Below are positions 46,036-59,326 of a DNA stretch of 64,000 nt, one piece after another. The stretch is taken from positions 1 to 64,000 of the forward strand of contig NZ_FOTF01000013.1 in NCBI RefSeq assembly GCF_900114485.1. The letters run 5' to 3'. A model generated the notes under the pieces. That model had not been told where the DNA came from. It saw nothing but the letters and a program-made list of their open reading frames with translations, and ran no database searches. A program made the translations under genes and the position numbers. Numbering within the stretch: position 1 is the stretch's first letter; each line of letters opens with the position of its first letter. The stretch is from Loktanella salsilacus. GTDB taxonomy: Bacteria; Pseudomonadota; Alphaproteobacteria; Rhodobacterales; Rhodobacteraceae.

Positions 46036-46602
46036 GTGAGTTATTCCGCCAGCGCCCCGCGCACCTTGCCTTTGGCTATTCGTCTTATCTTGGGTATTTC
46101 AACGCTTTGCGGGATTGTCGCATCCTTGATGATGTTCGCCGCCGTGCTGATCACCTGCCACATGATCTTTGTGCGCAATGTGCTGAACCAGTCGACCGTC
46201 TGGCAGACAGAGGTCGTGATTTATCTGATGATCGCAGCGACCCTGATTGGTCTGTCCTATGTGCAAAAGCTGCGCGGGCATGTGGGGGTCGATCTGTTAC
46301 CAACGCTGCTGCCCCAACGCATGCGGCGCGGGCTGGGTATTGCCACGCTGGTGGTCACCGCCGTGATGATCGCTGTGATGCTCTATTACGGCTATGACAT
46401 GTGGCATTTCGCATGGCAGCGCGGCTGGAAATCCGAAACCGTATTGGCCGCGCCGCTGTGGATCCCCTATCTTGCGATCCCCGTCGGCTTTGCCTTGTTC
46501 TTGCTGCAACTGCTGGCCGATTTGTGGCTGTCGGTGACAGCCTTTCCCATGGACGCCAAGGGCTTGCCCGCCATTGGCCTTGAGATGTCAGAGGATTACT
46601 GA
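46036..46602 (+). CDS. TRAP transporter small permease (DctQ type)
   Basis: The 188-residue protein has four membrane helices and the DctQ pattern (WQTEVVIYLMIAATLIGLSY, then RGHVGVDLL). It starts with GTG (46036) and overlaps the large permease (TGATG). It pairs with DctM in the sodium-driven importer. Confidence 0.9.
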   Translation: MSYSASAPRTLPLAIRLILGISTLCGIVASLMMFAAVLITCHMIFVRNVLNQSTVWQTEVVIYLMIAATLIGLSYVQKLRGHVGVDLLPTLLPQRMRRGLGIATLVVTAVMIAVMLYYGYDMWHFAWQRGWKSETVLAAPLWIPYLAIPVGFALFLLQLLADLWLSVTAFPMDAKGLPAIGLEMSEDY

Positions 46603-47921
46603 TGGACCCCCTTGCCCTTGGTGGCCTCGTTGCCCTGTTCACCGTCGTTGTGCTGTTTTCTGGCGTACCTGTTGCCGTCGGTCTGCTGATTGTCGCGACG
46701 GGCTTCCTTTATGTCTTTGACGGCCCGCGCAGCCTGCAAGCCCTGCCAGAGCTGTTTTACGGCGATCTAAACTCCTTTGCCCTGCTATCGATCCCGATGT
46801 TCATCATCATGGGGGCGGCGATTTCATCGACCCGCGCCGGGCCCGATCTGTACGAAGCGTTAGAACGTTGGCTGACCCGCGTGCCCGGCGGCCTGCTGGT
46901 ATCAAACTTGGGGGCCTGCGCCCTGTTCGCTGCGATGTCCGGGTCTAGCCCCGCGACCTGCGCCGCCATCGGCAAAATGGGCATCCCAGAGATGCGCAAA
47001 CGCGGCTACCCGGACGAAGTCGCAGCAGGCTCTATCGCGGCAGGCGGCACTTTAGGGATCCTGATCCCGCCGTCAGTGACGATGATCGTTTACGGCATCG
47101 CGACCGAAACCAGCATTGGCCGCCTGTTCTTGGCAGGTGTCTTGCCGGGTATCTTGCTCGTCTCGCTGTTCATCGCTTGGGCGATCTTTGACACATGGCG
47201 GCGCGGCGCGGCGGGTGTGGCACTGTCCGGCGTCACCTATAGCTGGCGCGAAAAGTTCGAGATTTTGCCCCGCGTTATCCCGTTTATCGTGATCATCGCA
47301 GGCGTGCTTTACGCCCTTTATGGCGGCATCGCGACGCCGTCGGAAACTGCGGCCGTGGGTGCGCTTTTGTGCATTGTCGTCGCTGTGGTCGTCTACAAGA
47401 TGGTGCAACCCGCCGCGCTCTGGACGGTGCTGCGTGACAGCACACGTGAAAGCGTGATGATCTTGTTCATCATCGGCGCGGCAGGTGTGTTCAGCTTTAT
47501 GCTGTCGTCCTTGTTCGTCACCCAGTCCATCGCCGCATGGATCGCCGACCTTGATGTGAACCGCTGGGTCCTAATGGGGGTGATCAACGTCTTTTTGCTG
47601 GTCGCTGGGTTCTTCCTCCCCCCCGTCGCTGTCATTTTGATGAGCGCGCCGATCCTATTGCCGATCATCACAGCCGCAGGGTTCGACCCCTATTGGTTCG
47701 CCGTGATCGTCACGATCAACATGGAAATCGGCCTGATCACGCCGCCTGTGGGCCTGAACCTTTACGTCATCAACGGGATCGCGCCGGATATCAGCCTGAA
47801 AAAGATCTTGGTCGGATCAATGCCCTTTGTGCTGTGCATGGTGCTGGCGATCATCATCCTGTCGGCCTTTCCATCCATCGTGACGTGGCTGCCCGACTAT
47901 CTCATGGGGCCAGAACTGTGA
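46602..47921 (+). CDS. TRAP transporter large permease (DctM type)
   Basis: The 439-residue protein has about twelve membrane helices and DctM signatures (FALLSIPMFIIMGAAISST; SPATCAAIGKMGIPEMRKRG; GGTLGILIPPSVTMIVYG; EIGLITPPVGLNLYVINGIA). It is the transport channel. Its stop overlaps the next start (TGATG). Confidence 0.95.
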   Translation: MDPLALGGLVALFTVVVLFSGVPVAVGLLIVATGFLYVFDGPRSLQALPELFYGDLNSFALLSIPMFIIMGAAISSTRAGPDLYEALERWLTRVPGGLLVSNLGACALFAAMSGSSPATCAAIGKMGIPEMRKRGYPDEVAAGSIAAGGTLGILIPPSVTMIVYGIATETSIGRLFLAGVLPGILLVSLFIAWAIFDTWRRGAAGVALSGVTYSWREKFEILPRVIPFIVIIAGVLYALYGGIATPSETAAVGALLCIVVAVVVYKMVQPAALWTVLRDSTRESVMILFIIGAAGVFSFMLSSLFVTQSIAAWIADLDVNRWVLMGVINVFLLVAGFFLPPVAVILMSAPILLPIITAAGFDPYWFAVIVTINMEIGLITPPVGLNLYVINGIAPDISLKKILVGSMPFVLCMVLAIIILSAFPSIVTWLPDYLMGPEL

Positions 47922-49189
47922 TGCGCGCCACCTCTGTCCTGAACGATCTTGTGGGCCGGGTGGCAGACCGGGGTCGCAGCATGATGGGCACAACCGCGCC
48001 GCGCACAGTGGCGCAGTTGTGCGATACCCTGCTGACAGGAAAGGGAGAGGCGACAGGCCTTGCCATCGCCAGCGCGATCTTTGACCGCTATGACGCGATG
48101 AGCCCCGCCGCGCGGCATGACTTTTTCACCATGCTGCGCGACCGGTTCAGCGTGGACCGCGCCCGCACCGAAGCGGCCTTGCAGCAATGGCAGGATGGCG
48201 ACGATACCGCCCTGCGCGTCCTGCACGCCGCGTCAGAGCCGCGATCCCAAGAGCTAATCCGCCGCCTGAACCGCGCGCCCGGCGGCACCCGCCGCTTGGT
48301 GGCCATGCGCAATGATCTGCTAAATCTGATGGATGACGATGCAAGCCTTGGGGCGCTGGATGCGGATTTCAGGCATTTATTTTCGTCTTGGTTCAATCGT
48401 GGCTTTTTGGAATTGCAGCGGATCGACTGGCACACGCCGGCCAATATCCTTGAAAAGATCATTAAATACGAAGCCGTCCACGAAATCAGCGGCTGGGACG
48501 ATCTGCGCCGCCGTGTGGCCGCGCTTGACCGCAGGCTTTACGCCTTCTTTCATCCCGCGCTTGGCGATGATCCCCTGATTTTCGTCGAAGTCGCCCTGAC
48601 GGCGGATATTCCCGTCGACATCGGTGCAATCCTTGCCGCAGATCGTGACATGATGCCGCCAGCCAAGGCGCAGACGGCAGTCTTCTATTCCATCTCCAAC
48701 TGCCAAACAGGCCTGCGCGGCATTTCATTCGGCAACTTCTTAATCAAGCAAGTGGTCGAAGAGCTGGGCCGCGAATGGCCAAACCTAAGCACCTTTGTGA
48801 CTCTGTCCCCGGTTCCGGGATTGCGCCCTTGGGCGCTGGCGCAAAAAGACAAACTACCGCCGCGACTGGCGGACGTCGTGACCCAGGCCGAAAGCGGCGC
48901 GCGCCCAAGCGGCCTGTCGGACCTGACCGCGCACTACATGCTAGTGGCCCGCAGCACCCGCGGCGGCGCAACTGATCCTGTGGCGCGGTTCCATCTGGGC
49001 AACGGCGCGCGGCTGGAACGTATTCACCGCGACGCCGATACATCGGCCAATGGGCAACAGGCGTCATGGGGTGTCATGGTGAACTATCTTTACGATCTTG
49101 ATACGATTGAACGAAACCACGAAGCCTACTCCACGGCGGACGACATCATCGCGTCGTCCACCGTACGCCGGCTGATTAAGACACGATGA
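47921..49189 (+). CDS. matA: Malonyl-CoA decarboxylase
   Basis: The 422-residue protein matches malonyl-CoA decarboxylase, which converts malonyl-CoA to acetyl-CoA and CO2. Visible are the N-terminal helical domain and the catalytic GNAT-like domain with FVTLSPVPGL (catalytic Ser region), FYSISNCQTGLRGISFGNFL and the FHLGNGARLERIH segment holding the catalytic His. The start at 47921 overlaps the dctM stop. With MatB it completes malonate to acetyl-CoA. Confidence 0.95.
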   Translation: MRATSVLNDLVGRVADRGRSMMGTTAPRTVAQLCDTLLTGKGEATGLAIASAIFDRYDAMSPAARHDFFTMLRDRFSVDRARTEAALQQWQDGDDTALRVLHAASEPRSQELIRRLNRAPGGTRRLVAMRNDLLNLMDDDASLGALDADFRHLFSSWFNRGFLELQRIDWHTPANILEKIIKYEAVHEISGWDDLRRRVAALDRRLYAFFHPALGDDPLIFVEVALTADIPVDIGAILAADRDMMPPAKAQTAVFYSISNCQTGLRGISFGNFLIKQVVEELGREWPNLSTFVTLSPVPGLRPWALAQKDKLPPRLADVVTQAESGARPSGLSDLTAHYMLVARSTRGGATDPVARFHLGNGARLERIHRDADTSANGQQASWGVMVNYLYDLDTIERNHEAYSTADDIIASSTVRRLIKTR

Positions 49190-49201
49190 CAAGGATCCAA
49201 T

Positions 49202-50716
49202 ATGTATAGCGCGAACTGTCTAGCCTCCGCCCTGCGCGCCGCCTCGCTCGGGCGCGATGATGCGCCTTTTGCCACCGACGCCAGCACGGGGCAGATCACG
49301 ACCTATAGCGCGCTTTGGACTCAGGTAGAGGCGATGGCCGGTGCATTGGTCGCCCTTGGCGTCGCACCCGGCGACCGCGTGGCGATGCAGGTCGAAAAAT
49401 CGATCCCGGGCCTCGCCTGCTATCTGGGCACCGTGCTGGCTGGCGCGATCCACCTGCCGCTCAATACCGGTTATCCGGCGGCAGAGGTGTCGTATTTCCT
49501 GACCGACGCCGCCCCGCGCGTGTTCATTTGCGACCCGGCCAAGCTGGACACCATGTCGCCCGTGGCGCTGGACGCTGGCGTAAGCCACGTCTTGACGCTG
49601 GACGCAGACGGCGCAGGCACCTTGTCGGACGCCGCTGCCACGGCGACCCCGCTAACGCAGGCGGTGGCAAGAGGCGCGGACGATCTAGCTGCATTCCTTT
49701 ATACCTCTGGCACCACGGGGCGCAGCAAAGGCGCGATGCTGACCCACGGCAACCTGACATCGAACGCCGACACGCTGCGCGATCTGTGGCAGTTCACCGA
49801 CACCGACGTGCTGATCCACGCGCTGCCCGTCTTTCACACTCACGGCCTGTTTGTGGCGATCAACGTCACGCTGATGGCGGGCGGCGCGATCATTTTGCAC
49901 CGCAGCTTTGACGCCGCCGCCGTTCTGGCGGATTTTCCCCGCGCCACATCGCTGATGGGCGTGCCGACCTTCTATACCCGCCTGCTGGACCAGCCCGGCC
50001 TGACGAAAGACGCCTGCGCCGGGATGCGCCTGTTCGTGTCCGGATCGGCCCCCATGCTGCTAGACACCCACCTGAAATGGCAGGATCGCACCGGGCATAC
50101 CGTGCTGGAACGCTACGGCATGACCGAAACCTGCATGAACACATCGAACCCCTACGACGGACAGCGCAAGCCCGGCACCGTGGGATTGCCCCTGCCGGGG
50201 GTAGAACTGCGTCTGGCCGAGGCGGACGGCTCCCCCACACCAAAGGGCGCGCCCGGCGGGATCGAAGTGCGCGGGCCGAACCTGTTCAAAGGCTATTGGC
50301 AAATGCCTGAAAAAACCGCCGCCGATATGCGCGCCGATGGCTGGTTCATCACCGGCGATATCGGCCAGATCGACGACGACGGCTATGTCTCGATCGTGGG
50401 GCGGTCAAAGGATCTGATCATCTCTGGCGGCTACAACATTTACCCCAAGGAAATCGAGGCGCTGATCGACGACATTGACGGCGTGGTCGAAAGCGCGGCT
50501 TTCGGCGTGCCTGACGCAGATTTCGGCGAAAGCGTCGCCGTCGCCATTGTGCTGGAACGCGGCGCAACCCTCACGCCGGATGCGATCAAACAGGCCATCG
50601 CCCCGCAGCTGGCGCGCTATAAACACCCGAGGCAAGTCCATATCCTTGACGCATTACCGCGCAACACGATGGGCAAAGTGCAAAAGAACCAGCTGCGCGA
50701 TACCTTTGCCGCCTAG
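49202..50716 (+). CDS. matB: Malonyl-CoA synthetase
   Basis: The 504-residue AMP-forming ligase has the P-loop YTSGTTGRSKGAMLTHGNL (about 161-179), the YGMTET motif, the GWFITGDIG hinge region and the catalytic Lys near GKVQKNQLRD at the end. MatB activates malonate to malonyl-CoA with ATP. It follows matA by 12 bases and ends the operon, converging with the glycerate kinase gene (4-base overlap of ends). Confidence 0.94.
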   Translation: MYSANCLASALRAASLGRDDAPFATDASTGQITTYSALWTQVEAMAGALVALGVAPGDRVAMQVEKSIPGLACYLGTVLAGAIHLPLNTGYPAAEVSYFLTDAAPRVFICDPAKLDTMSPVALDAGVSHVLTLDADGAGTLSDAAATATPLTQAVARGADDLAAFLYTSGTTGRSKGAMLTHGNLTSNADTLRDLWQFTDTDVLIHALPVFHTHGLFVAINVTLMAGGAIILHRSFDAAAVLADFPRATSLMGVPTFYTRLLDQPGLTKDACAGMRLFVSGSAPMLLDTHLKWQDRTGHTVLERYGMTETCMNTSNPYDGQRKPGTVGLPLPGVELRLAEADGSPTPKGAPGGIEVRGPNLFKGYWQMPEKTAADMRADGWFITGDIGQIDDDGYVSIVGRSKDLIISGGYNIYPKEIEALIDDIDGVVESAAFGVPDADFGESVAVAIVLERGATLTPDAIKQAIAPQLARYKHPRQVHILDALPRNTMGKVQKNQLRDTFAA

Positions 50717-51960
50717 GGCATGATCAGGATCGCGCGGAAATCGTTGACGTTCGTCAGCGTGGGCCCGGTCACGACCTGATCGCCCATACTGGCGAAAAAG
50801 CGATGCGCATCGTTGCAGCCTAGCGCGTCTTGCGGCGAAACGTTCAGGCCCTTGGCCCGCTTAAGGGTCTGGGGTCCGGCATAGGCCCCCGCGACCTCTG
50901 CTGCGCCATCGACGCCGTCGGTATCGCAGGCGATCAGGTGAATACGCGGGTGGCCTTGCAGGCCGATCGCAGCAGCCAGCGCATATTCCGCGTTCGGCCC
51001 GCCGATGCCATTGCCCTGCCGGGTGACTGTGCATTCGCCCCCAGACAGCAACAGCACGGGGCACGTCAGTGGCGCGCCTGCAATTTGCAACGCCAGCGCA
51101 GCATGGGACTGCGCCAGATCGCGCGCCTCGCCTTCAAGCGCATCGCCGAGCATCCGCACCTCAATCCCCGCCGCCTGCGCCTGCGCTGCGGCAGCCAGAA
51201 GCGAATGGGACGGGGCGGCGACGATCAAGGCAGTGGCGTTTGCAAGACGGGCATCATCCTTGGCGATGGGCGGGGGCGCGGCGGCAATCACAGCACGCAG
51301 ATGGTCCGGCAGCGCCACGCGCCAATGGTCAATCAACGCCAACGCCTCTTTCGCTGTGGCGCGGCTGGCTACGGTGGGGCCAGAGGCGATCTCGCTCAGG
51401 TCGTCGCCGGGCACGTCGGACAGAACCAGCGATAACAGCCGCGCCGGGGCGCAGGCTGCCGCCAGCTTGCCACCCTTCACCGCAGACACCTGCTTGCGCA
51501 CCACATTCATGCCAGAGATTGGCATGCCAGACGCCAGCAGCGCGGCGTTCAGCGCTTGTTTATCCGCCAGCGTCACACCGTCCACCGGCGCGCAAAGCAA
51601 GGACGACCCCCCGCCAGAGATCAGGGCGATCACTTGATCCTCTGGGCCAAGCGTCGCGCAAAGCGCCAGCAGGCGCTGCGCCGCGTCCACGCCCGCTTGG
51701 TCAGGCACGGGATGCGCGGCCTCGGTAATCTCGATCCCGGCGCAGGGGCGGGCATAGCCATAGCGCGTAATGACCAAGCCTTCGCAAGGGCCATAGGCGG
51801 CCTCGACCGCCTCGGCCATGCGGGCGCTGGCCTTGCCTGCACCGATCACAACAAGCCGCCCCGCAGGGCGCGGCGGCAGATGCGGCGGCAGGCACAGCAT
51901 CGGATCAGCGCGGGCGACAGCGGCGTGAAACAGGTCCGTCAAAAACGCCTTCGCGTCCAT
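50713..51960 (-). CDS. Glycerate 2-kinase (MOFRL/GckA type)
   Basis: The 415-residue protein matches the GckA/TtuD family: VIGAGKASARMAEAVEAAYG near the start, SGGGSSLLCAPV in the middle, SDVPGDD, and the C-terminal MOFRL domain (LLLSGGECTVT … GGPNAEYALA … CDTDGVDG). These enzymes phosphorylate D-glycerate to 2-phosphoglycerate; older databases call them hydroxypyruvate reductase. It is the last gene of the seven-gene operon, its start overlapping the isomerase stop (TAATG). It would consume the glycerate released by the adjacent glycosidase. Confidence 0.92.
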   Translation of the reverse strand: MDAKAFLTDLFHAAVARADPMLCLPPHLPPRPAGRLVVIGAGKASARMAEAVEAAYGPCEGLVITRYGYARPCAGIEITEAAHPVPDQAGVDAAQRLLALCATLGPEDQVIALISGGGSSLLCAPVDGVTLADKQALNAALLASGMPISGMNVVRKQVSAVKGGKLAAACAPARLLSLVLSDVPGDDLSEIASGPTVASRATAKEALALIDHWRVALPDHLRAVIAAAPPPIAKDDARLANATALIVAAPSHSLLAAAAQAQAAGIEVRMLGDALEGEARDLAQSHAALALQIAGAPLTCPVLLLSGGECTVTRQGNGIGGPNAEYALAAAIGLQGHPRIHLIACDTDGVDGAAEVAGAYAGPQTLKRAKGLNVSPQDALGCNDAHRFFASMGDQVVTGPTLTNVNDFRAILIMP

Positions 51961-52646
51961 TAGGCCAACCAGTCCCGATAGTCGCTGACCAACAAATGGG
52001 TCGGTGCCTCGTCCTCTTCGATCTGGGCAAAGCGGCCGATGGGCGCTTGAAAGATGTTGTCCGTTTCGTCGTCGTTGACGGTGCTGACCTCTCCGATCAG
52101 GACATCACCGCCCTCGCCCCAGAAGGCGTGCCAATCGCCGGGGCGCAGCGTGACGCTTTCGCCGGGGGCAAGGCGCAGCTTTTCACCGGGCGCAAAGGGG
52201 CGCGCGATGCCGTCGCACATGACGACCCCGCCGCGATCTTCGGCAAAACCGCCTTGGTCGTCAGAGCCGTAAAGCTTTACCACCAGCGCCCCGCCGCCGC
52301 GGTTGATGATATCCTCGGCCTTGATGACATGGGTGTGCATCGGCGACAGCTGATCCTGCCGCGAGATCAGCAGCTTTTCCGCGTAGCACATGCCACCACC
52401 GCGTTGCAGATCAGACAGCAAACCGTTGCGCAGGGTGAACAGGAACAGACCCATGTCGTCGAACTTGTCCCGGCCATAGTCGGTGATGTCCCAGCCGCAG
52501 CGCGCGTTGATGACATGCGCCGCGCCGGGTGCGCGGGCCTTGAACTGATCGGGCGACCAAGACGCAAAGGGCGGCAGGACAAAGCCATAGCTGCGGATCA
52601 TCTCGTCCGCTTCGGCCATGATCTGGTTGATGCGCGACCGCTTCAT
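51960..52646 (-). CDS. D-lyxose/D-mannose isomerase (cupin)
   Basis: The 228-residue cupin matches the D-lyxose isomerase family (YdaE type). Expected metal ligands are visible: His104 and His106 in SPMHTHVIKAED, Glu111, and His173 in PGDWHAFWG. Characterised members interconvert D-mannose and D-fructose as well as D-lyxose and D-xylulose. Placed between a glycosylglycerate hydrolase and a glycerate kinase, mannose to fructose is the fitting reaction (inference). Confidence 0.88.
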   Translation of the reverse strand: MKRSRINQIMAEADEMIRSYGFVLPPFASWSPDQFKARAPGAAHVINARCGWDITDYGRDKFDDMGLFLFTLRNGLLSDLQRGGGMCYAEKLLISRQDQLSPMHTHVIKAEDIINRGGGALVVKLYGSDDQGGFAEDRGGVVMCDGIARPFAPGEKLRLAPGESVTLRPGDWHAFWGEGGDVLIGEVSTVNDDETDNIFQAPIGRFAQIEEDEAPTHLLVSDYRDWLA

Positions 52647-52647
52647 C

Positions 52648-53931
52648 TTAGCGTCCTGCCTGTGCCAAAAACTCGATCACCATGGCCGCCGTCCACGTGA
52701 ACCGTCCGCCGCCGCAAGGCGTGCCGTCGGTGGGGTCATAGTATTCGGCAAAGCCGCTTTTCTCGATCAGCGCTATGCTGTCAGCCACGATGCGGGCCGC
52801 GACATCGCCCTGCCCCGCCTGCTGCAAGCCGTCGGCAATCATATAGTTCACGATCAACCAGACCGGACCGCGCCAATAGCGCAGGCTGTCAAACTCTGCC
52901 GCGTCTGGGTCGTGGCTCGGCACAAGGTAGGTCACCTTCTCGCCCAAGATCGTCAGCCGGGTGCCGATGGCCGCAGCGCGGTGCTGCGGGATGGCGGCAA
53001 AGGTCGCCAGCAAACCGCCGATGGACGGGCTTTGGATCAATGTGCCCAGCGTGCGGTCTAGGCACAGGTACTGACCCTGCGCATCGCTCCACAGTGTTTC
53101 CATTGCGGCCAGACCGCGGGCCAGATGCGCCCGCGCTTGCGCTGCAATACCCGGCTGGTCCAGCGTGTCGGCCAGATCGGCCAGATCGGCGCAGGACCGC
53201 AGCAGGATCGCGTTAAACCCCGGATCAACGACCTGAAACGGTGATGCGTCGTGCAATTTGGTGTTGTCCCAGTTCAATCCGCGGAACAGCTGCACAAGAT
53301 AGATGTAGCGTTCGTATTGCGCCTGCGTTGGGCGGTGATCGGGGTTCGCATGCTGGGTATCGCGGCGCACAAAAGGCAACACGCCCGTGGTCGGCACGCG
53401 TTCAAACGCAGCGTCCCAATCGACCGAGTTATCGCGCCCGGATTCCCACGGATGGATGATCGCCACAAGGCCCGTGCCCTGCGGGTCACGGCTGCGAAAG
53501 AACCAATCGTGCCACGCTGCGATCTTGGGCAGCAAGGCACCCGCGCGCGCCCGCGCCATGTCGCGGTCCTTGGTCATGTCGAAAATGCGGCGCACGGCAA
53601 AGCCTGCGACGGGCGGCTGGGTAATGCCTGACGTTGGCGTCGGGCGGTGCGTTTGCCACACGTCCGGGCCGGGAAAATAGCCGTCGTCGTGCTGGTGGAA
53701 CACGATATGCGGCACCATGCCGTCGTCCCACTGGTGATCAAACAGCGTGTCGATTTCGGTCCAGGCGCGATCCTCATTGATGTGGGCCTGACCGATCGCT
53801 GTCAGGCAGGAATCCCAGTTCCATTGAAAGGGATACAGGCCGTGGGTCGGCACGGTATAGGTGCCGCGATCATTCTCGCGCAGGATCTCGGCGGCGTGGT
53901 CAAAGATAGCGTTTGCCATTGGGATACTCAT
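52648..53931 (-). CDS. GH63-type mannosylglycerate/glucosylglycerate hydrolase
   Basis: The 427-residue protein is an (alpha/alpha)6-barrel glycosidase of the GH63 mannosylglycerate/glucosylglycerate hydrolase group. Landmarks are YPFQWNWDSCLTAIGQ (33-48), DGMVPHIVFH (70-79), HPWESGRDNSVDWD (160-173) with likely general acid Asp167, LRYWRGPVWLIVNYMI (350-365) and FAEYYDP (394-400) with likely general base Glu396. It has no signal peptide, so it acts in the cytoplasm after uptake. Trehalase (GH37) is an alternative fold relative, but the neighbouring glycerate kinase and mannose isomerase favour mannosylglycerate. Confidence 0.82.
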   Translation of the reverse strand: MSIPMANAIFDHAAEILRENDRGTYTVPTHGLYPFQWNWDSCLTAIGQAHINEDRAWTEIDTLFDHQWDDGMVPHIVFHQHDDGYFPGPDVWQTHRPTPTSGITQPPVAGFAVRRIFDMTKDRDMARARAGALLPKIAAWHDWFFRSRDPQGTGLVAIIHPWESGRDNSVDWDAAFERVPTTGVLPFVRRDTQHANPDHRPTQAQYERYIYLVQLFRGLNWDNTKLHDASPFQVVDPGFNAILLRSCADLADLADTLDQPGIAAQARAHLARGLAAMETLWSDAQGQYLCLDRTLGTLIQSPSIGGLLATFAAIPQHRAAAIGTRLTILGEKVTYLVPSHDPDAAEFDSLRYWRGPVWLIVNYMIADGLQQAGQGDVAARIVADSIALIEKSGFAEYYDPTDGTPCGGGRFTWTAAMVIEFLAQAGR

Positions 53932-53937
53932 TTCAGA

Positions 53938-54978
53938 TCAGGCGACGGCTTGCGTCGTTTCAGGGTCGAACCAGCGGATACGGTCCGGCTGCGGGGCCAG
54001 CGTCAGAATATCGCCGGGGCGCACGGTCAGATCACTGTCCAGCACGGCGCGAAAGGATGCGCCTTCGACATCGCAGGTCACCAGCAGGTGCGCGCCAAGC
54101 GGCTCGACCACGCGGGCGGTGGCTTTCAGGCCTTGGTCTGCGGGGCTCAGGTCCTCTGGCCGGATCGCGAATTCCAGCGGCTTTTGCGTCGCAGGACCGT
54201 TGAAGGTTTGCCCCGCGACGGACCACTGCCCATTGCCATGCGATGTGGCGGGCAAGAAATTCATCGGCGGATTGCCGATAAAGCTGGCGACAAAACGGGC
54301 GGCGGGGTTGCGATACACCTCGATCGGGGATGCCGCCTGCACGATGCGGCCTTGGTGCATAACGCTGATCCGGTCGGCAAGGCTCATCGCCTCGACCTGA
54401 TCATGGGTCACATAGATCGCGGTGGTTTTGCTTTCGGCCAAGACACCCTTCAGCTCTGCACGCATTTCCAGACGCAGCAGCGCGTCTAGGTTCGACAGCG
54501 GCTCGTCCATCAGGATCACATCAGGTTCCATCGCAAGCGCGCGCGCCACGGCAACACGCTGCCGCTGACCACCTGAGAGTTCCCCCGAATACCGCTTGAG
54601 CAGCTGTTCGATATGCATCAGCTCTGCCGTGCGTTCGACCCGCTTGGTGACCAACGCATTGTCCATTTTGGCCATGCGCAGACCAAAGGCGATGTTTTCG
54701 AACACCGTCAGATGCGGAAACACGGCGTAATTTTGAAACACCATCGCGATCCCGCGATCCCGCGGCGCAAGGTGATCGACGCGGCGGTCACCGATCCAGA
54801 CTTCGCCCTCTGACGGGGTCTCTAGTCCTGCGATAATTCGCAGCAAGGTGGTTTTGCCGCAACCGGACGCGCCTAGCAGGACCATAAATTCCTGATCCGC
54901 AACATCAAGGTTGATGGAATGAAGCGCCTGGTAAGCCCCAAACCGCTTGGCAACGTTCTTAATTCTGATCTGAGCCAT
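53938..54978 (-). CDS. Sugar ABC transporter ATPase (MalK/UgpC type)
   Basis: The 346-residue protein has Walker A GASGCGKTT, Q-loop VFQNYAVFPHLTVFENIAFG, signature LSGGQRQRVAVARALAMEPD, Walker B VILMDEPLSNLDA, and a C-terminal TOBE regulatory domain. The start at 54978 (MAQIRIKNVAKRFG, AGGAT upstream) fits the family better than an upstream ATG. It powers the two permeases encoded just upstream. Confidence 0.95.
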   Translation of the reverse strand: MAQIRIKNVAKRFGAYQALHSINLDVADQEFMVLLGASGCGKTTLLRIIAGLETPSEGEVWIGDRRVDHLAPRDRGIAMVFQNYAVFPHLTVFENIAFGLRMAKMDNALVTKRVERTAELMHIEQLLKRYSGELSGGQRQRVAVARALAMEPDVILMDEPLSNLDALLRLEMRAELKGVLAESKTTAIYVTHDQVEAMSLADRISVMHQGRIVQAASPIEVYRNPAARFVASFIGNPPMNFLPATSHGNGQWSVAGQTFNGPATQKPLEFAIRPEDLSPADQGLKATARVVEPLGAHLLVTCDVEGASFRAVLDSDLTVRPGDILTLAPQPDRIRWFDPETTQAVA

Positions 54979-55001
54979 GAAGGTGATCCTTTCAGGTGGG
55001 G

Positions 55002-55841
55002 TTAGCGGTTTGCGATGCCCCACATTGCGAACAGGTATTTCCGGACCGCAAAGATGAATACGAGGGCGGGGACGACAAGGATGAACCCCCCGGCGAATTT
55101 AAGGTGCAGCGGCGAGGTGCCGAGCGATTGAAGCAAGAAGGCAGGCAAGGTCCGGTTCTGGATCGTCAGCACGGCGGCTGCGAAAACCTCGTTCCACGAA
55201 ATCACGAAGGCAAAGATTGCGGATGCGGCGATGCCCGGTGCGATCAGTGGCAGCACGACCTTGGTAAAGGCGGTGAACCGCGTGCAGCCCAGCGTCCATG
55301 CCGCCTCTTCCAGCTCTATCGGGATGCCCGAAAACAGCGAGAAGGTGATCAGCACAGCAAAGGGAATTGCCAGCGTCGTGTGAACCAGCGCCAAGCCCAG
55401 CAAGGTGTCGTCCAATCCGGTGCGGATGAACAAGACGGCCAAAGGCAGGGCCAAGAGCGGCAGGGGAAAGGCGCGGGTCAGCAGGATCAGGACGCGAAAC
55501 AGTTCCTTGCCGCGAAAGTCGAACCGCGACAGCGCGTAGCCAGCTGGTGCGCCAAAGGCGATGGACAGCACCATGGTCAGGCAGGCGACGATGACCGAGT
55601 TTTTCAGCGCGGTCAGCATCCCGGCGAAGTTCGCGAAAAACGTCAGTGACCCCATGTCGAATTCAGGGATGAACGATTTGGGAAAGGCATTGACGGTTTC
55701 CGGCGACGACAGGGTGTTGATCAGCAAAAAGTAGATCGGCACCAGCACCCAGGCGCACAGGAACACAATGGCGGCGCGGAACAAAAAGCGGCCAGATTTA
55801 CGGACGTCCGCATGGGCGACGTCAGGGGTGACAGCGGTCAT
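55002..55841 (-). CDS. Sugar ABC transporter permease (MalG type)
   Basis: The 279-residue protein has six membrane helices and the EAA loop (ELEEAAWTLGCTRFTAFTKV then LPLIAPG) that contacts the ATPase. Its start overlaps the preceding permease stop by four bases. Confidence 0.95.
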   Translation of the reverse strand: MTAVTPDVAHADVRKSGRFLFRAAIVFLCAWVLVPIYFLLINTLSSPETVNAFPKSFIPEFDMGSLTFFANFAGMLTALKNSVIVACLTMVLSIAFGAPAGYALSRFDFRGKELFRVLILLTRAFPLPLLALPLAVLFIRTGLDDTLLGLALVHTTLAIPFAVLITFSLFSGIPIELEEAAWTLGCTRFTAFTKVVLPLIAPGIAASAIFAFVISWNEVFAAAVLTIQNRTLPAFLLQSLGTSPLHLKFAGGFILVVPALVFIFAVRKYLFAMWGIANR

Positions 55842-56683
55842 ATCGTTGCTCCTTTCGGGACGCGCAGCAGACGCAGGATGATCAAGGTGAACCCGATGGA
55901 AATCGCGAGGATGATCAGGGCGATCGCCGCGGCCGCACCGCTGTTCAGCAGGTCAAACTGATAGGCATAGGTTTCGGCCATCAGCACGGGGAACAGTGAT
56001 CCGCCAAGGGCGATGACGACGGCGAAAACCTCGAAGGCAAGGATGACGCGCAGAACAAGGGCGGTTTGCAGTGACGGGCGCAGCATCGGCAGCGTGATCT
56101 TCAGGAACCGCTTCCATGGGGATGCGCCGAACACCTCTGCCGCCTCGTAATACTCCTTTGGGATCAGGCCCATACCCGCAACAAGGATCACCAACATGAT
56201 CGCTGTCGCACGCCAGATTTCGGCCAGCGCGATGGCGATAAAGATGACCCAAGGATGCTCGTAGGTCAGCAGACTGATCGGTTTGTCGATCAGGCCCATG
56301 CCTGACATCATGGAATTCAGGAAACCGGACTGCTCAAAGATCGCAAGCCAGATGATACCGGCGGCTAGGTCGGAAATCCCCAGCGGGATTGTCCAGACAT
56401 ACAGAACCAGATCGCGGCCCTTTTCCATCTTGCTGACCATCGTGGCCATGGCCAGCGACAGGGCAAGCTGGATCGGCACGACGATGGCGGCCAGCAGCAG
56501 CGTGTTTTTGAGCGAGATCGGGAATTTCCAATATCCCACCACCTCGCGGAAGTTCGCCAGCGTGAAACCATCGCCCTGCGTGAACGCAAGCTGCGCGACC
56601 AGCACAAAGGGATAGATAAAGAACACGCACAAAAACAGCGTGACGGGCAGGATTAGCAAATAAGGAAGGGTGCGGGCGTTCAT
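55838..56683 (-). CDS. Sugar ABC transporter permease (MalF type)
   Basis: The 281-residue protein has six membrane helices and the EAA loop (YYEAAEVFGASPWKRFLKIT then LPMLRPSL). The start at 56683 is preceded by AGGAG at seven bases, favoured over an ATG nine codons upstream. It forms the channel with the MalG-type permease. Confidence 0.95.
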   Translation of the reverse strand: MNARTLPYLLILPVTLFLCVFFIYPFVLVAQLAFTQGDGFTLANFREVVGYWKFPISLKNTLLLAAIVVPIQLALSLAMATMVSKMEKGRDLVLYVWTIPLGISDLAAGIIWLAIFEQSGFLNSMMSGMGLIDKPISLLTYEHPWVIFIAIALAEIWRATAIMLVILVAGMGLIPKEYYEAAEVFGASPWKRFLKITLPMLRPSLQTALVLRVILAFEVFAVVIALGGSLFPVLMAETYAYQFDLLNSGAAAAIALIILAISIGFTLIILRLLRVPKGATI

Positions 56684-56726
56684 GGGATCGCTCCTTGCCG
56701 GATGGGTCATCCGTCATTCCGGGGGT

Positions 56727-56750
56727 GTCCGGGCCATTGCTGGCCCGGAC
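56727..56750 (-). terminator. Intra-operon hairpin after the ABC binding-protein gene
   Basis: GTCCGGGCCA and TGGCCCGGAC form a perfect 10-bp stem with loop TTGC, 25 bases after the binding-protein stop and before the first permease. It likely raises binding-protein level relative to permeases. The TRAP operon has the same arrangement. Confidence 0.75.
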
Positions 56751-56775
56751 GGTGGATCGTCAGGGAGGAGGACGA

Positions 56776-58044
56776 TTATTCGACGGGGCACGCGCCTTCG
56801 GACGGCGCATCAGGGGCCCAGCAGACAGCGCCAGTTTCCTGCATGATCGCGTCCAGCACTTTGGCCTGGTCGTCCAGCACAGCGCGGATGTCTTGGCCGC
56901 CCAGAATGATCCGCTCGAAGCTGTCGACATAGACGCGGTTAAAATCGCCGCCCTTGTCGCCCAGACCTGCGGGCAGCAGACCGGGGTTTGCGTCGGCAGC
57001 GCCGCTCATCTTGGCAATCGCGTCGCCAGCCGCGCGCACGGATGGTGGTAGATCGTCAGGCAAAGCCACGTCGACCACCGGGAAGAAGTTCGTCGCCCGC
57101 AGCGTTGCGATTTGGGTTTCCGGCTTCATCATATAGGCAACCAGCGCTTCGGCTTCGGCCATGTCAGGTGCGGTCACGGGGATCGCCAGACCTGCGACAA
57201 CAGGCATGAAACCACGCCCGGTTGGGCCTGCAGGTGCCGGGAAGGCGACGAAGTCATCAGGGCGCTCGTTAAACGCACCGGCTAGACGCGATGTGTGGTC
57301 GAAAGCGATCCAGACGTCCTCGGACAGCAATTGTTCCTGCATGAACGAAAAGTTCGTCGAACCGGTGTTCGTGTGGGACCAAAGGGCGCGGAACGCTTCC
57401 CATGCGCCGACGGCGGCGTCGGATTTAAACGTGCGCACCACGCCGTCGGTGTAGGACGGATAAAGGTAGCCTTGGAAGAAACGGTGCTTTAGACCATCTG
57501 GGCCAGCAGGAAAGCCGAACTTCTTGTCGCCTGTCGCCTCTTCCACAGCGGCCGACCATGCGATCAGTTGATCATAGGTCAGCGCGTCGATGTCAGCGCC
57601 TTCGGGCAGAAATTCCAGTGCCTTTTTGTTAGCGGCCATGATGTAGGACGCCTGCATCCACGGCAGATAATGCTGCTGATCCGTGCCCAGCTTGCCCAGT
57701 TCCAGGAACGTCGGGTTCACAGTCACGCCGCCCAGATCAAGGCCGGACAGATCCGCCAGATTGGCCGCATCCATCGCAGCAAAGCCGCCGTGCAGATCGC
57801 CCAGCACACCAATCGTGCCGTCGCCGGCCTGCAATTCAGCGTTCAGACGCGTTAGGAACGGACCGCTATCGTTGGCCTGATAGTCGGCACCTGCGTCAAA
57901 GCCGGACAGGACCTGATCGCGCATCGCCTGCGTTTCCTCGATCGGTTTGGCCTGCGTGGACCAGAACAGCACTTCGGCCTGCGCGGCACCGGTGGTCAGC
58001 GCGACGGCAGCAGTTGCACCCAATAATACGTTTTGCAGATTCAT
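56776..58044 (-). CDS. Sugar ABC transporter substrate-binding protein
   Basis: The 422-residue protein has a signal peptide (about 1-23, ending AQAE) and the fold of family-1 extracellular solute-binding proteins (MalE-like; LPWMQASYIMAANKKALEFL, DVWIAFDHTSRLAGAF). The start at 58044 follows GGGAGAG. It is the first gene of the operon, which continues with permeases, ATPase, hydrolase, isomerase and kinase, so its ligand should be the glycoside cut by the hydrolase. Cysteines near the C-terminus (VCWAPDAPSEGAC) may form a disulfide. Confidence 0.9.
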   Translation of the reverse strand: MNLQNVLLGATAAVALTTGAAQAEVLFWSTQAKPIEETQAMRDQVLSGFDAGADYQANDSGPFLTRLNAELQAGDGTIGVLGDLHGGFAAMDAANLADLSGLDLGGVTVNPTFLELGKLGTDQQHYLPWMQASYIMAANKKALEFLPEGADIDALTYDQLIAWSAAVEEATGDKKFGFPAGPDGLKHRFFQGYLYPSYTDGVVRTFKSDAAVGAWEAFRALWSHTNTGSTNFSFMQEQLLSEDVWIAFDHTSRLAGAFNERPDDFVAFPAPAGPTGRGFMPVVAGLAIPVTAPDMAEAEALVAYMMKPETQIATLRATNFFPVVDVALPDDLPPSVRAAGDAIAKMSGAADANPGLLPAGLGDKGGDFNRVYVDSFERIILGGQDIRAVLDDQAKVLDAIMQETGAVCWAPDAPSEGACPVE

Positions 58045-58185
58045 TTTTCTCTCTCCCTGTTGGTCTTTGGCACCTGCCCAACGGACATGACGCCACCTTT
58101 TGATCCCGAAGGGTCTTTGCCGCAGCTGGTTTCCCGATGGATCCATGGCCCCCTCCTGCCAGAATCACGCCGCTGGAGGCATTAA

Positions 58186-58203
58186 TGGTATAACGATATA
58201 CCA
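58186..58203. promoter_or_regulatory. LacI-type operator in the divergent gap
   Basis: TGGTATA (58186-58192) and TATACCA (58197-58203) are exact inverted repeats around ACGA, the size and CG-containing centre usual for LacI operators. It lies between the binding-protein start and the LacI gene, about 140 bases before the former and 92 before the latter. Confidence 0.65.
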
Positions 58204-58294
58204 GTCGTCAAGTATCATTTCACCGAACTGGACTGTGCAAACTGCCCTCTTTGGCGTATCCCTATGCTTGGAATTGCCAAAATCAGGTTTAACG

Positions 58295-59326
58295 ATGCAC
58301 CCCAGCGACGCCGCATCCACACGGAAAAAGCCGAACCTTCAAACGGTTGCAGAAGCGGCAGGCGTCTCTCTGGCGACGGTCAGTCAGGTGATGCGCAACG
58401 CCGGGCGCATTTCGGAAAAGACCCGCGAAAAGGTGTTGAAAGCAGCCGAGGCGCTGAACTACGTCCCAGACGGGCGTGCCGCCGCCATGCGATCGGGCCA
58501 AAATCACGAGATCGGATTGGTCATCCACCAGATCGCCAACCCCTTTAACGCAGAGGTCATCAGCGGCGTCAGCGACCTGCTGGAAACCGAAGGCTATCTT
58601 GTCTCCGTCCTCGATTCCCGCGATGACCCGGCGAAAGAGGCGCGCAATCTTGAAGCCTTCATTCGCAGTGGCCGCGGCGGTCTGCTGTGGGTCCCTGCCG
58701 TGGGCGCGCGCAATCGGTCGTTTGAATTGCTCAAAACCCACCAGATGCCCACAGTCACCTTTCTGCGCCGCGCGCAGCAGATCACCTGCGATCATGTGGG
58801 CATTGAAAACGCCGCCGCGACGGCGACGGCGACCCGCTATCTGGCCGACCTTGGCCACCGTCATATCGCGTTTTTCGGCGGCACCGGCGCGGGACAGGTC
58901 CACCTGCAACGGATTGAAGGCTACGAAGCCGTCATGGCCGAACGCGGCCTTGGCACCCCGCTTATCTGGCCCTGCGCCGATAACAAATTAGCCGGGCTCG
59001 AGGCGAACTTGGCCCTGCGCAAGGCCCATCCAGAGGTTACAGCGCTGGTCTGCAACGGCGATATGGTCGCCATCGGGGCCTGCCTTGCGCTGCACCGCCT
59101 TGGCCTGACGCCGGGGCGCGACATGTCGATCATAGGCTTCGATGACATTGCCGACGCAGCCGTCGCTACGCCGCCGCTGTCCACGATGGCGGTGTCGCCG
59201 CATCAACTGGGGCGGCGGTTGGCGCAGGTGCTACTGGACCGGATCAAAACACCCGACATGCCCCACGTTACCGTCACCGTGCCCGCCACGCTGATCACGC
59301 GCGGCACGACGGGGGCACCGATTTAG
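58295..59326 (+). CDS. LacI-family transcriptional regulator
   Basis: The 343-residue protein has the LacI helix-turn-helix and hinge (LQTVAEAAGVSLATVSQVMR near 15-34; REKVLKAAEALNYVPDGRAA) and a periplasmic-binding-like effector domain (IGLVIHQIANPFNAEVISGV; MSIIGFDDIADAAVATPPLS). The start at 58295 is the methionine nearest the HTH; longer in-frame starts lack family resemblance. Divergent from the glycosylglycerate operon, it is the likely local repressor. Confidence 0.93.
   Translation: MHPSDAASTRKKPNLQTVAEAAGVSLATVSQVMRNAGRISEKTREKVLKAAEALNYVPDGRAAAMRSGQNHEIGLVIHQIANPFNAEVISGVSDLLETEGYLVSVLDSRDDPAKEARNLEAFIRSGRGGLLWVPAVGARNRSFELLKTHQMPTVTFLRRAQQITCDHVGIENAAATATATRYLADLGHRHIAFFGGTGAGQVHLQRIEGYEAVMAERGLGTPLIWPCADNKLAGLEANLALRKAHPEVTALVCNGDMVAIGACLALHRLGLTPGRDMSIIGFDDIADAAVATPPLSTMAVSPHQLGRRLAQVLLDRIKTPDMPHVTVTVPATLITRGTTGAPI

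Follow-up and report, generated by a model that had tools for sequence, protein, structure and literature searches.

Eight genes at positions 50713–59326 of a 64,000-nucleotide stretch of Loktanella salsilacus DNA (contig NZ_FOTF01000013.1, positions 1 to 64,000; the whole stretch is referred to here as the window) very likely constitute, on the evidence of their sequences, a dedicated operon for the import and catabolism of glycosylglycerates, for which mannosylglycerate (MG) is likely to be the main substrate. MG is the digeneaside of red algae and is also an osmolyte of some microbes, and glucosylglycerate (GG) is made by marine picocyanobacteria; digeneaside and GG are both abundant low-molecular-weight carbon compounds. 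How would such a heteroside be used? A solute-binding protein, two permeases and an ATPase would import MG, and a cytoplasmic GH63-type enzyme, acting with inversion, would release mannose and D-glycerate from it. The isomerase LYX would then convert mannose to fructose, to be phosphorylated by a kinase encoded elsewhere in the genome, and the MOFRL kinase KIN would convert glycerate to 2-phosphoglycerate. A LacI-type repressor would hold the operon off via its single operator until an inducer is present. Taken as a whole, this scheme, acting on a 2-O-alpha-glycosyl-D-glycerate that is most probably MG, is fairly probable, the substrate, each reaction and the direction of flux being those that we infer from the genes.

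Seven of the genes lie on the reverse strand and one is divergent, as an earlier sequence-only reading of the window had proposed; all eight were confirmed in position and strand, and Pfam and NCBIfam agree with the families that it had assigned to the importer, hydrolase, isomerase, glycerate kinase and regulator. Reading down the reverse strand, the genes encode a periplasmic solute-binding protein (SBP; 56776–58044, 422 residues; PF13416, PF01547), two CUT1-type ATP-binding cassette (ABC) permeases (PERM1, 55838–56710, 290 residues; PERM2, 55002–55841, 279 residues; both PF00528), a UgpC/MalK-type ABC ATPase with a TOBE_2 domain (ATP; 53938–54978, 346 residues; PF00005, PF08402 and NCBIfam), a GH63-type glycosylglycerate hydrolase of the MG hydrolase/GG hydrolase (MgH/GgH) family (GH; 52648–53931, 427 residues; Pfam, PDB and contact residues), a D-lyxose/D-mannose ketol-isomerase (LYX; 51960–52646, 228 residues; Pfam, PDB and NCBIfam) and a glycerate 2-kinase of the MOFRL/DUF4147 type (KIN; 50713–51960, 415 residues; Pfam, PDB and the public annotation 'glycerate kinase'). 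The LacI-family regulator (343 residues; PF00356, PF13377) occupies 58295–59326 of the forward strand. Spacing is close throughout: KIN and LYX share base 51960, the gaps between LYX and GH, GH and ATP, and ATP and PERM2 are 1, 6 and 23 bases, PERM2 and PERM1 overlap by 4 bases, and 65 bases separate PERM1 from SBP. In the public annotation PERM1 starts 9 codons downstream, at 56683, and GH 4 codons downstream. Scans for promoters and terminators gave no excess over shuffled sequence.

The identity of the hydrolase is central to this assignment. GH matches the MG hydrolase type family PF22422 at 366.3 bits (cut-off 27), is without a signal peptide as judged by eye, and has as its closest PDB relative the Thermus MgH (2z07/4wva; 408.6 bits, 47.5% identity), with the GgH of Mycolicibacterium hassiacum (MhGgH) at 231.1 bits and 34% identity. 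It retains 18 of the 19 compared contact residues of MhGgH. All of the catalytic and strictly conserved positions described in the available part of the MhGgH study (PMC6608630) are among them, namely the proposed catalytic residues Asp182 and Glu419 (present in the window enzyme as Asp167 and Glu396) and positions 36, 40, 42, 43, 88, 115, 180, 216, 222, 375 and 376, which take in the glycerate-holding Tyr36, Tyr88 and Arg216. MhGgH is inactive on glucosylglycerol and glucosylglycolate according to the same part of that source, and with these contacts retained the pocket of the window enzyme can therefore be taken to read glycerate. The 18 residues are nearly invariant across 93 rows from clade A, the closer relatives of GH, and 11 rows from clade B, the relatives at 39–49% identity (clade-A frames of 401–479 residues, and frames above 380 residues from the family sample described below); the exceptions are Gly180, gapped in 4 clade-A rows, Phe89, replaced by Tyr in 2 clade-A rows and 1 clade-B row, and His78, replaced by Ser in 1 clade-B row. 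The nineteenth position, 434, is Gln in MhGgH (5ohc chain; PMC6608630, available part) and Phe in both Thermus MgH and the window enzyme; chain 6g3n, which served as the MhGgH row of the alignment, shows Phe. As Phe occupies this position in 93/93 clade-A rows, 11/11 clade-B rows and 8/8 further plasmid copies, it sets the compared relatives apart, at the level of the alignment, from the mycobacterial GgH. Against the GG hydrolase equivalog NF047898 the window enzyme scores 356.1 bits, below the cut-off of 550, as do the copies from Deinococcus (366.1 bits) and Meiothermus (403.1 bits).

The second constant element is the importer, which has all the parts of a CUT1-type system: an extracellular SBP (with a signal peptide, by eye), two BPD_transp_1 permeases and a MalK/UgpC-like ATPase with a TOBE domain that scores 405.8 bits against the NCBIfam UgpC subfamily (cut-off 432). 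A phmmer search of the PDB with SBP finds no relative at E 0.001, and a profile search gives three weak matches at E 0.01. Conservation was gauged in the best 80 of at least 565 stretches that encode a GH relative in a scan of genome contigs, a set that excludes the window's own locus (L001) and in which gene presence was scored by tblastn; several of these related loci stop at contig ends (e.g. L012, L025, L067), so that the numbers given for absent genes are maxima. ATP is matched in 79 of the 80 loci, PERM2 in 78, PERM1 in 76 and SBP in 74, although the permeases and ATPases matched at L040 and L043 are paralogues, 25–43% identical; all four importer genes are present as orthologues in 74/80. 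SBP orthologues are 60–80% identical in the related loci and 47–60% identical in the plasmid copies. By these comparisons the conserved unit is the importer together with the hydrolase.

What, then, points to mannose as the hexose? MG is favoured over GG because an isomerase is present. LYX matches PF07385 at 332.6 bits (cut-off 20.8) and the D-lyxose isomerase 3kmh at 190.6 bits. It occurs in 24 of the 80 related loci, directly behind GH in 23 and one gene off in L046, and it reappears in clade B (11 of 30 loci examined, 10 of them taken regardless of LYX or KIN and L119 chosen for having LYX beside GH), namely in L119 and, about 5 kb off, in L100. Two further samples place this link in a wider setting: 149 genomes of the family, nearly one per genus, of which 41 have GH (11 at ≥68% identity and 30 at 39–49%), 68 have LYX and 92 have KIN, and 289 class-wide genomes, with GH in 11 and LYX in 10. 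Within the family LYX accompanies GH in 31/41 genomes as against 37/108 that are free of GH (p=7e-6; 30/40 and p=1.3e-5 without the window's own genome), and the association is seen in clade A alone (9/11, p=0.02) and in clade B (22/30, p=2e-4), all of these p-values being optimistic because the genomes are still related to one another. Of the 31 genomes that have both genes, 3 (the window's own, G086 and G063) have LYX no more than 10 kb from GH, or 2 if the window's own is set aside, where about 0.16 would be expected by chance. Class-wide, LYX is present in 3/11 GH genomes (p=0.004; p=0.034 without the window's own).

Two trees bear on the history of this partnership. In a FastTree tree of GH, LYX appears as a neighbour solely in the window's group (24/54 rows) and clade B (2/11), the label 'adjacent' having been assigned manually to L010, L012, L014, L040, L046 and the two clade-B loci; there are 16 changes in adjacency, of which the starred branches force 7, and since the Thermus MgH and MhGgH form long branches their placement was not used. 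In the LYX tree, drawn without L012, the state 'next to GH' is scattered, and its 14 changes do not improve on shuffles; only 3 are forced by starred branches, 28/42 branches are open and the two clade-B LYX sequences are very long branches, so that repeated moves of LYX may be said to be shown only weakly.

A number of results weigh against an operon built around MG and this isomerase. In the remaining clade-A groups (Mesorhizobium, Devosia, some Rhodobacterales) none of the 40 rows has LYX as a neighbour, and in the 10 loci retrieved from clade A of the family sample, two of which had little sequence behind GH, neither LYX nor KIN stands beside GH. The isomerase also leads a life of its own: 37 of the 68 LYX-bearing family genomes are without GH63, 19 of the 20 loci selected by LYX presence (L102–L121; the exception is L119) carry LYX alone or with KIN and without GH, and the sole same-genus genome of the family sample (G006) has LYX and not GH. 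Outside the family the link is not significant (1/8 GH genomes, p=0.21). KIN shows no co-occurrence with GH beyond chance (28/41 against 64/108 family genomes, p=0.35). Neither downstream enzyme reaches its equivalog model, LYX scoring 237.5 bits against the D-lyxose/D-mannose isomerase NF051472 (cut-off 350) and KIN 188.2 bits against NF041176 (cut-off 550); mannose activity varies among D-lyxose/D-mannose isomerases, with one archaeal enzyme below 2% on mannose in the available part of its description. Phe434, for its part, is present in every compared relative whatever the operon partners and therefore provides no discrimination between mannose and glucose.

These points feed the most serious alternative, which is that the physiological substrate is GG, or both heterosides equally, and that the isomerase serves other sources of mannose or lyxose and is co-transcribed by chance. 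MhGgH cleaves both MG and GG, the latter almost tenfold more efficiently (PMC6608630, available part), the Meiothermus version of the importer operon has a phosphorylase with the GG phosphorylase (GGaP) motif TETN, and up to 56 of the 80 related loci are without an isomerase match. Set against this, glucose requires no isomerase, LYX is directly behind GH in 23/80 loci and recurs in clade B, its co-occurrence with and proximity to GH exceed chance in the family, and the nearest solved relative of GH is an MgH and not a GgH. A GG operon is accordingly judged rather unlikely, and MG keeps its place as the favoured substrate. The naming of MG in the sequence-only reading thus stands as a preference over GG, with the 2-O-glycosylglycerate itself predicted and the mannose unit not proven.

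Two other explanations fare worse. The importer could serve osmoprotection, taking up a compatible solute under salt stress, with the hydrolase merely trimming the pool. MG and GG are indeed compatible solutes (PMC8490865 and PMC6608630, in the parts available), but local LacI-type control through a single operator, and catabolic partners (isomerase, kinases, phosphorylase) within the operon both here and in another phylum, make this very improbable. That the operon is for trehalose or another disaccharide is scarcely credible, as the weak PF01204 match (26.2 bits, cut-off 21) and the public annotation face a PF22422 score of 366.3 bits, no NCBIfam trehalase match at E 0.001, retained glycerate contacts and a glycerate kinase that would have no role. 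On the first three of these grounds a trehalase identity of the enzyme itself was rejected, and the label that it has in public records, 'trehalase family glycosidase' with the Gene Ontology term trehalose metabolic process, is misleading. Recycling of the cell's own solute was also considered and rejected for two routes of synthesis: mannosyl-3-phosphoglycerate synthase (MpgS) is found in 0/149 family genomes, and a PRK13915-type glucosyl-3-phosphoglycerate synthase (GpgS) above cut-off likewise in 0/149, with matches well under that cut-off in 143 (the search did not extend to the single-step synthase MgS).

The glycerate half of the pathway depends on KIN, in which the DUF4147 and MOFRL domains are both above cut-off (PF13660, 263.9 bits; PF05161, 113 bits) and whose closest PDB relative is the glycerate kinase 2b8n (233.6 bits). 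KIN is matched in 8 of the 80 related loci, once on the opposite strand, lies within 10 kb of GH in 2 of the 41 family genomes (the window's own and G007), and is found in clade B in L099 and Limimaricola; a second paralogue, 56% identical, is on contig 35 of the window's own genome. The sequence-only reading had held that a lack of the glycerate kinase from homologous loci would count against it, and taken literally this is the result, with up to 72/80 loci lacking a match. It is not taken as a refutation: KIN is present somewhere in 28/41 GH genomes and recurs beside GH elsewhere, and is therefore read as an optional member of the operon. The pathway had also been called closed. Import, hydrolysis, isomerisation and phosphorylation of glycerate are well supported by gene families, active-site residues and comparative context, but closed it is not, as fructose needs a kinase from outside the operon. 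The genome has seven PfkB matches, of which six were examined; one (L125; G000 contig 22, 42.5–43.8 kb), with fructokinase as its best NCBIfam model (133.8 bits, cut-off 450), is a weak candidate for this role.

Control of the operon appears to be local. The predicted operator was found as a palindrome, GTATAACGATATAC, at 58188–58201, in the intergenic region that separates SBP from the divergent LacI gene. It is the sole zero-mismatch match to RTATAWCGWTATAY in the 4,125,589-base genome (which was scanned at zero mismatch only) and the sole site at ≤1 mismatch in the window, where 0/100 shuffles reach one. A LacI of the same cluster is divergent in 44 of the 80 related loci; LacI matches as such occur in 73/80, 44 at 52–68% identity and 29 at 20–29%. 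The gap between LacI and SBP in relatives with a divergent LacI holds an exact site in 33/43 and a site at ≤1 mismatch in 38/43, a figure that is partly circular because the motif was derived from the same loci; its uniqueness in the genome, and the absence of any site at ≤1 mismatch from 657,545 bases outside such gaps, are not circular. Exact sites are present in 3 of 5 plasmid loci checked, and those of Jannaschia and Deinococcus have none. The regulator reads as a single-target local repressor, which would repress in the absence of inducer and release in its presence.

How far does the system extend? The complete eight-gene set, which the sequence-only reading had proposed to look for in other Roseobacter genomes, was found in 6 of the 80 related loci (L006, L013, L017, L036, L041 and L049), and it is also carried by L. 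salsilacus and by a Jannaschia plasmid of 26 kb. Among 72,556 plasmid records 102 match GH, 71 of them from Rhizobium. The order on a Deinococcus peraridilitoris plasmid is LacI-SBP-P1-P2-ATP-GH63-KIN-ROK kinase and on a Meiothermus taiwanensis plasmid LacI-SBP-P1-P2-ATP-GH63-sugar phosphorylase, both with an importer orthologous to that of the window, at identities of 47% and 52%, respectively, for SBP, 52% and 56% for PERM1, 58% and 60% for PERM2, and 61% and 60% for ATP. The Meiothermus phosphorylase is GH13_18-like, with the GGaP acid/base motif TETN and with PYELC where loop A of GGaP has PYELN (motifs from the available part of PMC10608839); among NCBIfam models it scores highest against sucrose phosphorylase, at 192.1 bits, below the cut-off of 334.4. 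Three enzyme sets thus stand behind one importer and hydrolase, and each is consistent with a substrate in which a hexose is joined to glycerate. In the orthologous operons of Roseomonas, Shinella and Chelatococcus neither LYX nor KIN adjoins, in the gene tables viewed.

Clade B shows the same hydrolase family with other transport partners. The order SBP'-P1'-P2'-GH-ATP' is found in 9 of the 11 loci examined, the remaining two having SBP' on the opposite strand in one case and GH alone in the other. The clade-B permeases are 26–31% identical to those of the window. Between the window SBP and the SBP' of L092, the one pair so compared, BLASTP finds no similarity (E 0.91), and against the Limimaricola SBP' there is one weak match of 80 residues (E 2e-4); both SBP and SBP' match Pfam SBP_bac_1 and SBP_bac_8. 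Judged by these identities the clade-B importer is a second, distantly related CUT1 importer and not an orthologue. The solved relatives of SBP' are 7v09 (97.1 bits) and YcjN (88.9 bits), the latter presumably a member of the Escherichia coli operon of YcjM. YcjM is a characterised GG phosphorylase (PMC8950772, available part).

Such an arrangement suggests, somewhat more strongly than it leaves in doubt, a cross-phylum family of dedicated glycosylglycerate importers, made up of SBP, two permeases, an ATPase and GH63, with exchangeable downstream 'adaptor' genes, and with a second CUT1 importer recruited to the same hydrolase family. The adaptors would be a mannose isomerase for MG in marine roseobacters and a GH13_18-like phosphorylase for GG in Meiothermus; in Deinococcus the place would be taken by a ROK kinase, and in Devosia, Chelatococcus and some Rhodobacterales by a PIG-L deacetylase. 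Public records name the hydrolase as trehalase or hypothetical, and the heteroside route would therefore be unrecognised as well as widespread.

Several observations concern the genes that accompany these hydrolases. A PIG-L family gene (GlcNAc-PI de-N-acetylase type) forms a cluster of 8 loci within the set of 80, and in 7 of them (L029, L046, L055, L056, L065, L066, L075) it is directly behind GH63, with a spacing of -4 to +3 bases; it also stands beside GH in four family loci (L084, L087, L088, L089) and in Chelatococcus (L139, 8304–8987); it could hint at an acylated or N-acetylated heteroside in those operons. In L039, L059, L066 and L072 (Devosia, Chelativorans) a second GH63 copy follows an SGNH-hydrolase-like gene, near a Gfo/Idh-like oxidoreductase and a dehydrogenase, with an alpha-galactosidase-like protein also in L059 and L066 (names by eye). 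As to the isomerase, the window LYX is 89–90% identical to the free-standing copy (L105) of the GH-free same-genus genome G006, and therefore isomerase and operon may have separate histories. LYX and KIN are adjacent without GH63 in L102, L103 and L104, in L103 with an upstream PfkB-type kinase (by eye), and this pair may serve another source of mannose plus glycerate. A gene of the Peptidase_C26 type (glutamine-amidotransferase-like; one member scanned) is found close to a free-standing LYX in eight family genomes (L110–L115, L117, L118).

In relation to known systems, dedicated MG uptake and hydrolysis for growth is represented by mngR-mngA-mngB of E. coli, with a substrate-phosphorylating phosphotransferase system, a GH38 mannosidase and a GntR-type regulator. 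The window operon has instead ABC import, GH63, an isomerase and LacI, and is not a system of that type. PDB entries 3kmh and 3mpb, which we take to be the E. coli D-lyxose isomerase, belong to the same family as LYX, and to our knowledge that enzyme has no link to a glycosylglycerate pathway. The MgH of Thermus thermophilus (TTHA0978; 2z07, 4wva-c) and MhGgH (5ohc), both in CAZy family GH63, share family and catalytic residues with the window enzyme; MhGgH was studied for the mobilisation of the cell's own solute (PMC6608630, available part), whereas the gene for the window hydrolase belongs to an operon for ABC import. GGaP of Meiothermus silvanus and YcjM of E. coli (GH13_18; PMC8950772, available part) likewise break a glycosylglycerate down into glycerate and a hexose unit, by phosphorolysis rather than hydrolysis, and enzymes of the GGaP type are described as strict GG phosphorylases in the available part of PMC6521584. 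In Meiothermus taiwanensis a GGaP-like gene is behind the orthologous importer and GH63.

No description of such an operon was found in the open-access literature, nor any open-access paper naming genes for the consumption of digeneaside or GG by marine bacteria, both searches covering titles and the starts of abstracts, with most subscription papers outside their scope. This agrees with the earlier claim that no dedicated system of this kind has been described, but the core proves to be widespread and misannotated rather than rare. The operon consists of known families in a combination not found described. The architecture is that of an ordinary sugar operon, and the surprise is in its reach and modular partner genes, not in a new mechanism. 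The operon offers a testable gene set and corrects a trehalase annotation, and SBP with GH63 is a marker for mining genomes and metagenomes. If the cross-phylum family is real, it would mean that algal and microbial heterosides enter bacteria by a widespread route that has gone unrecognised.

The window itself is contig 51 of a 4.13-Mb genome. Its segment 44000–64000 is 98.0% identical over 100% of its length to plasmid plas2 of Loktanella salsilacus 1A07893, and 98.0% identical over 75% to a plasmid of a second L. salsilacus strain; on the strength of these matches the operon is probably plasmid-borne. The public annotation of the 1A07893 plasmid gives the identical eight genes in identical order, and the gene table of the second strain, which is incomplete, is without one permease. 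The complete set on the 26-kb Jannaschia plasmid implies that the operon can sit on small replicons; its neighbours on that plasmid (L131; NZ_CP083543.1, 26,219 bases) are an RND efflux system and a tartrate dehydrogenase. Next to the operon in the window, at 46602–50716 of the forward strand, are genes for a TRAP transporter, a malonyl-CoA decarboxylase and a malonyl-CoA synthase, likely a cluster for the use of malonate, which converges on KIN such that the gene ends overlap by 4 bases.

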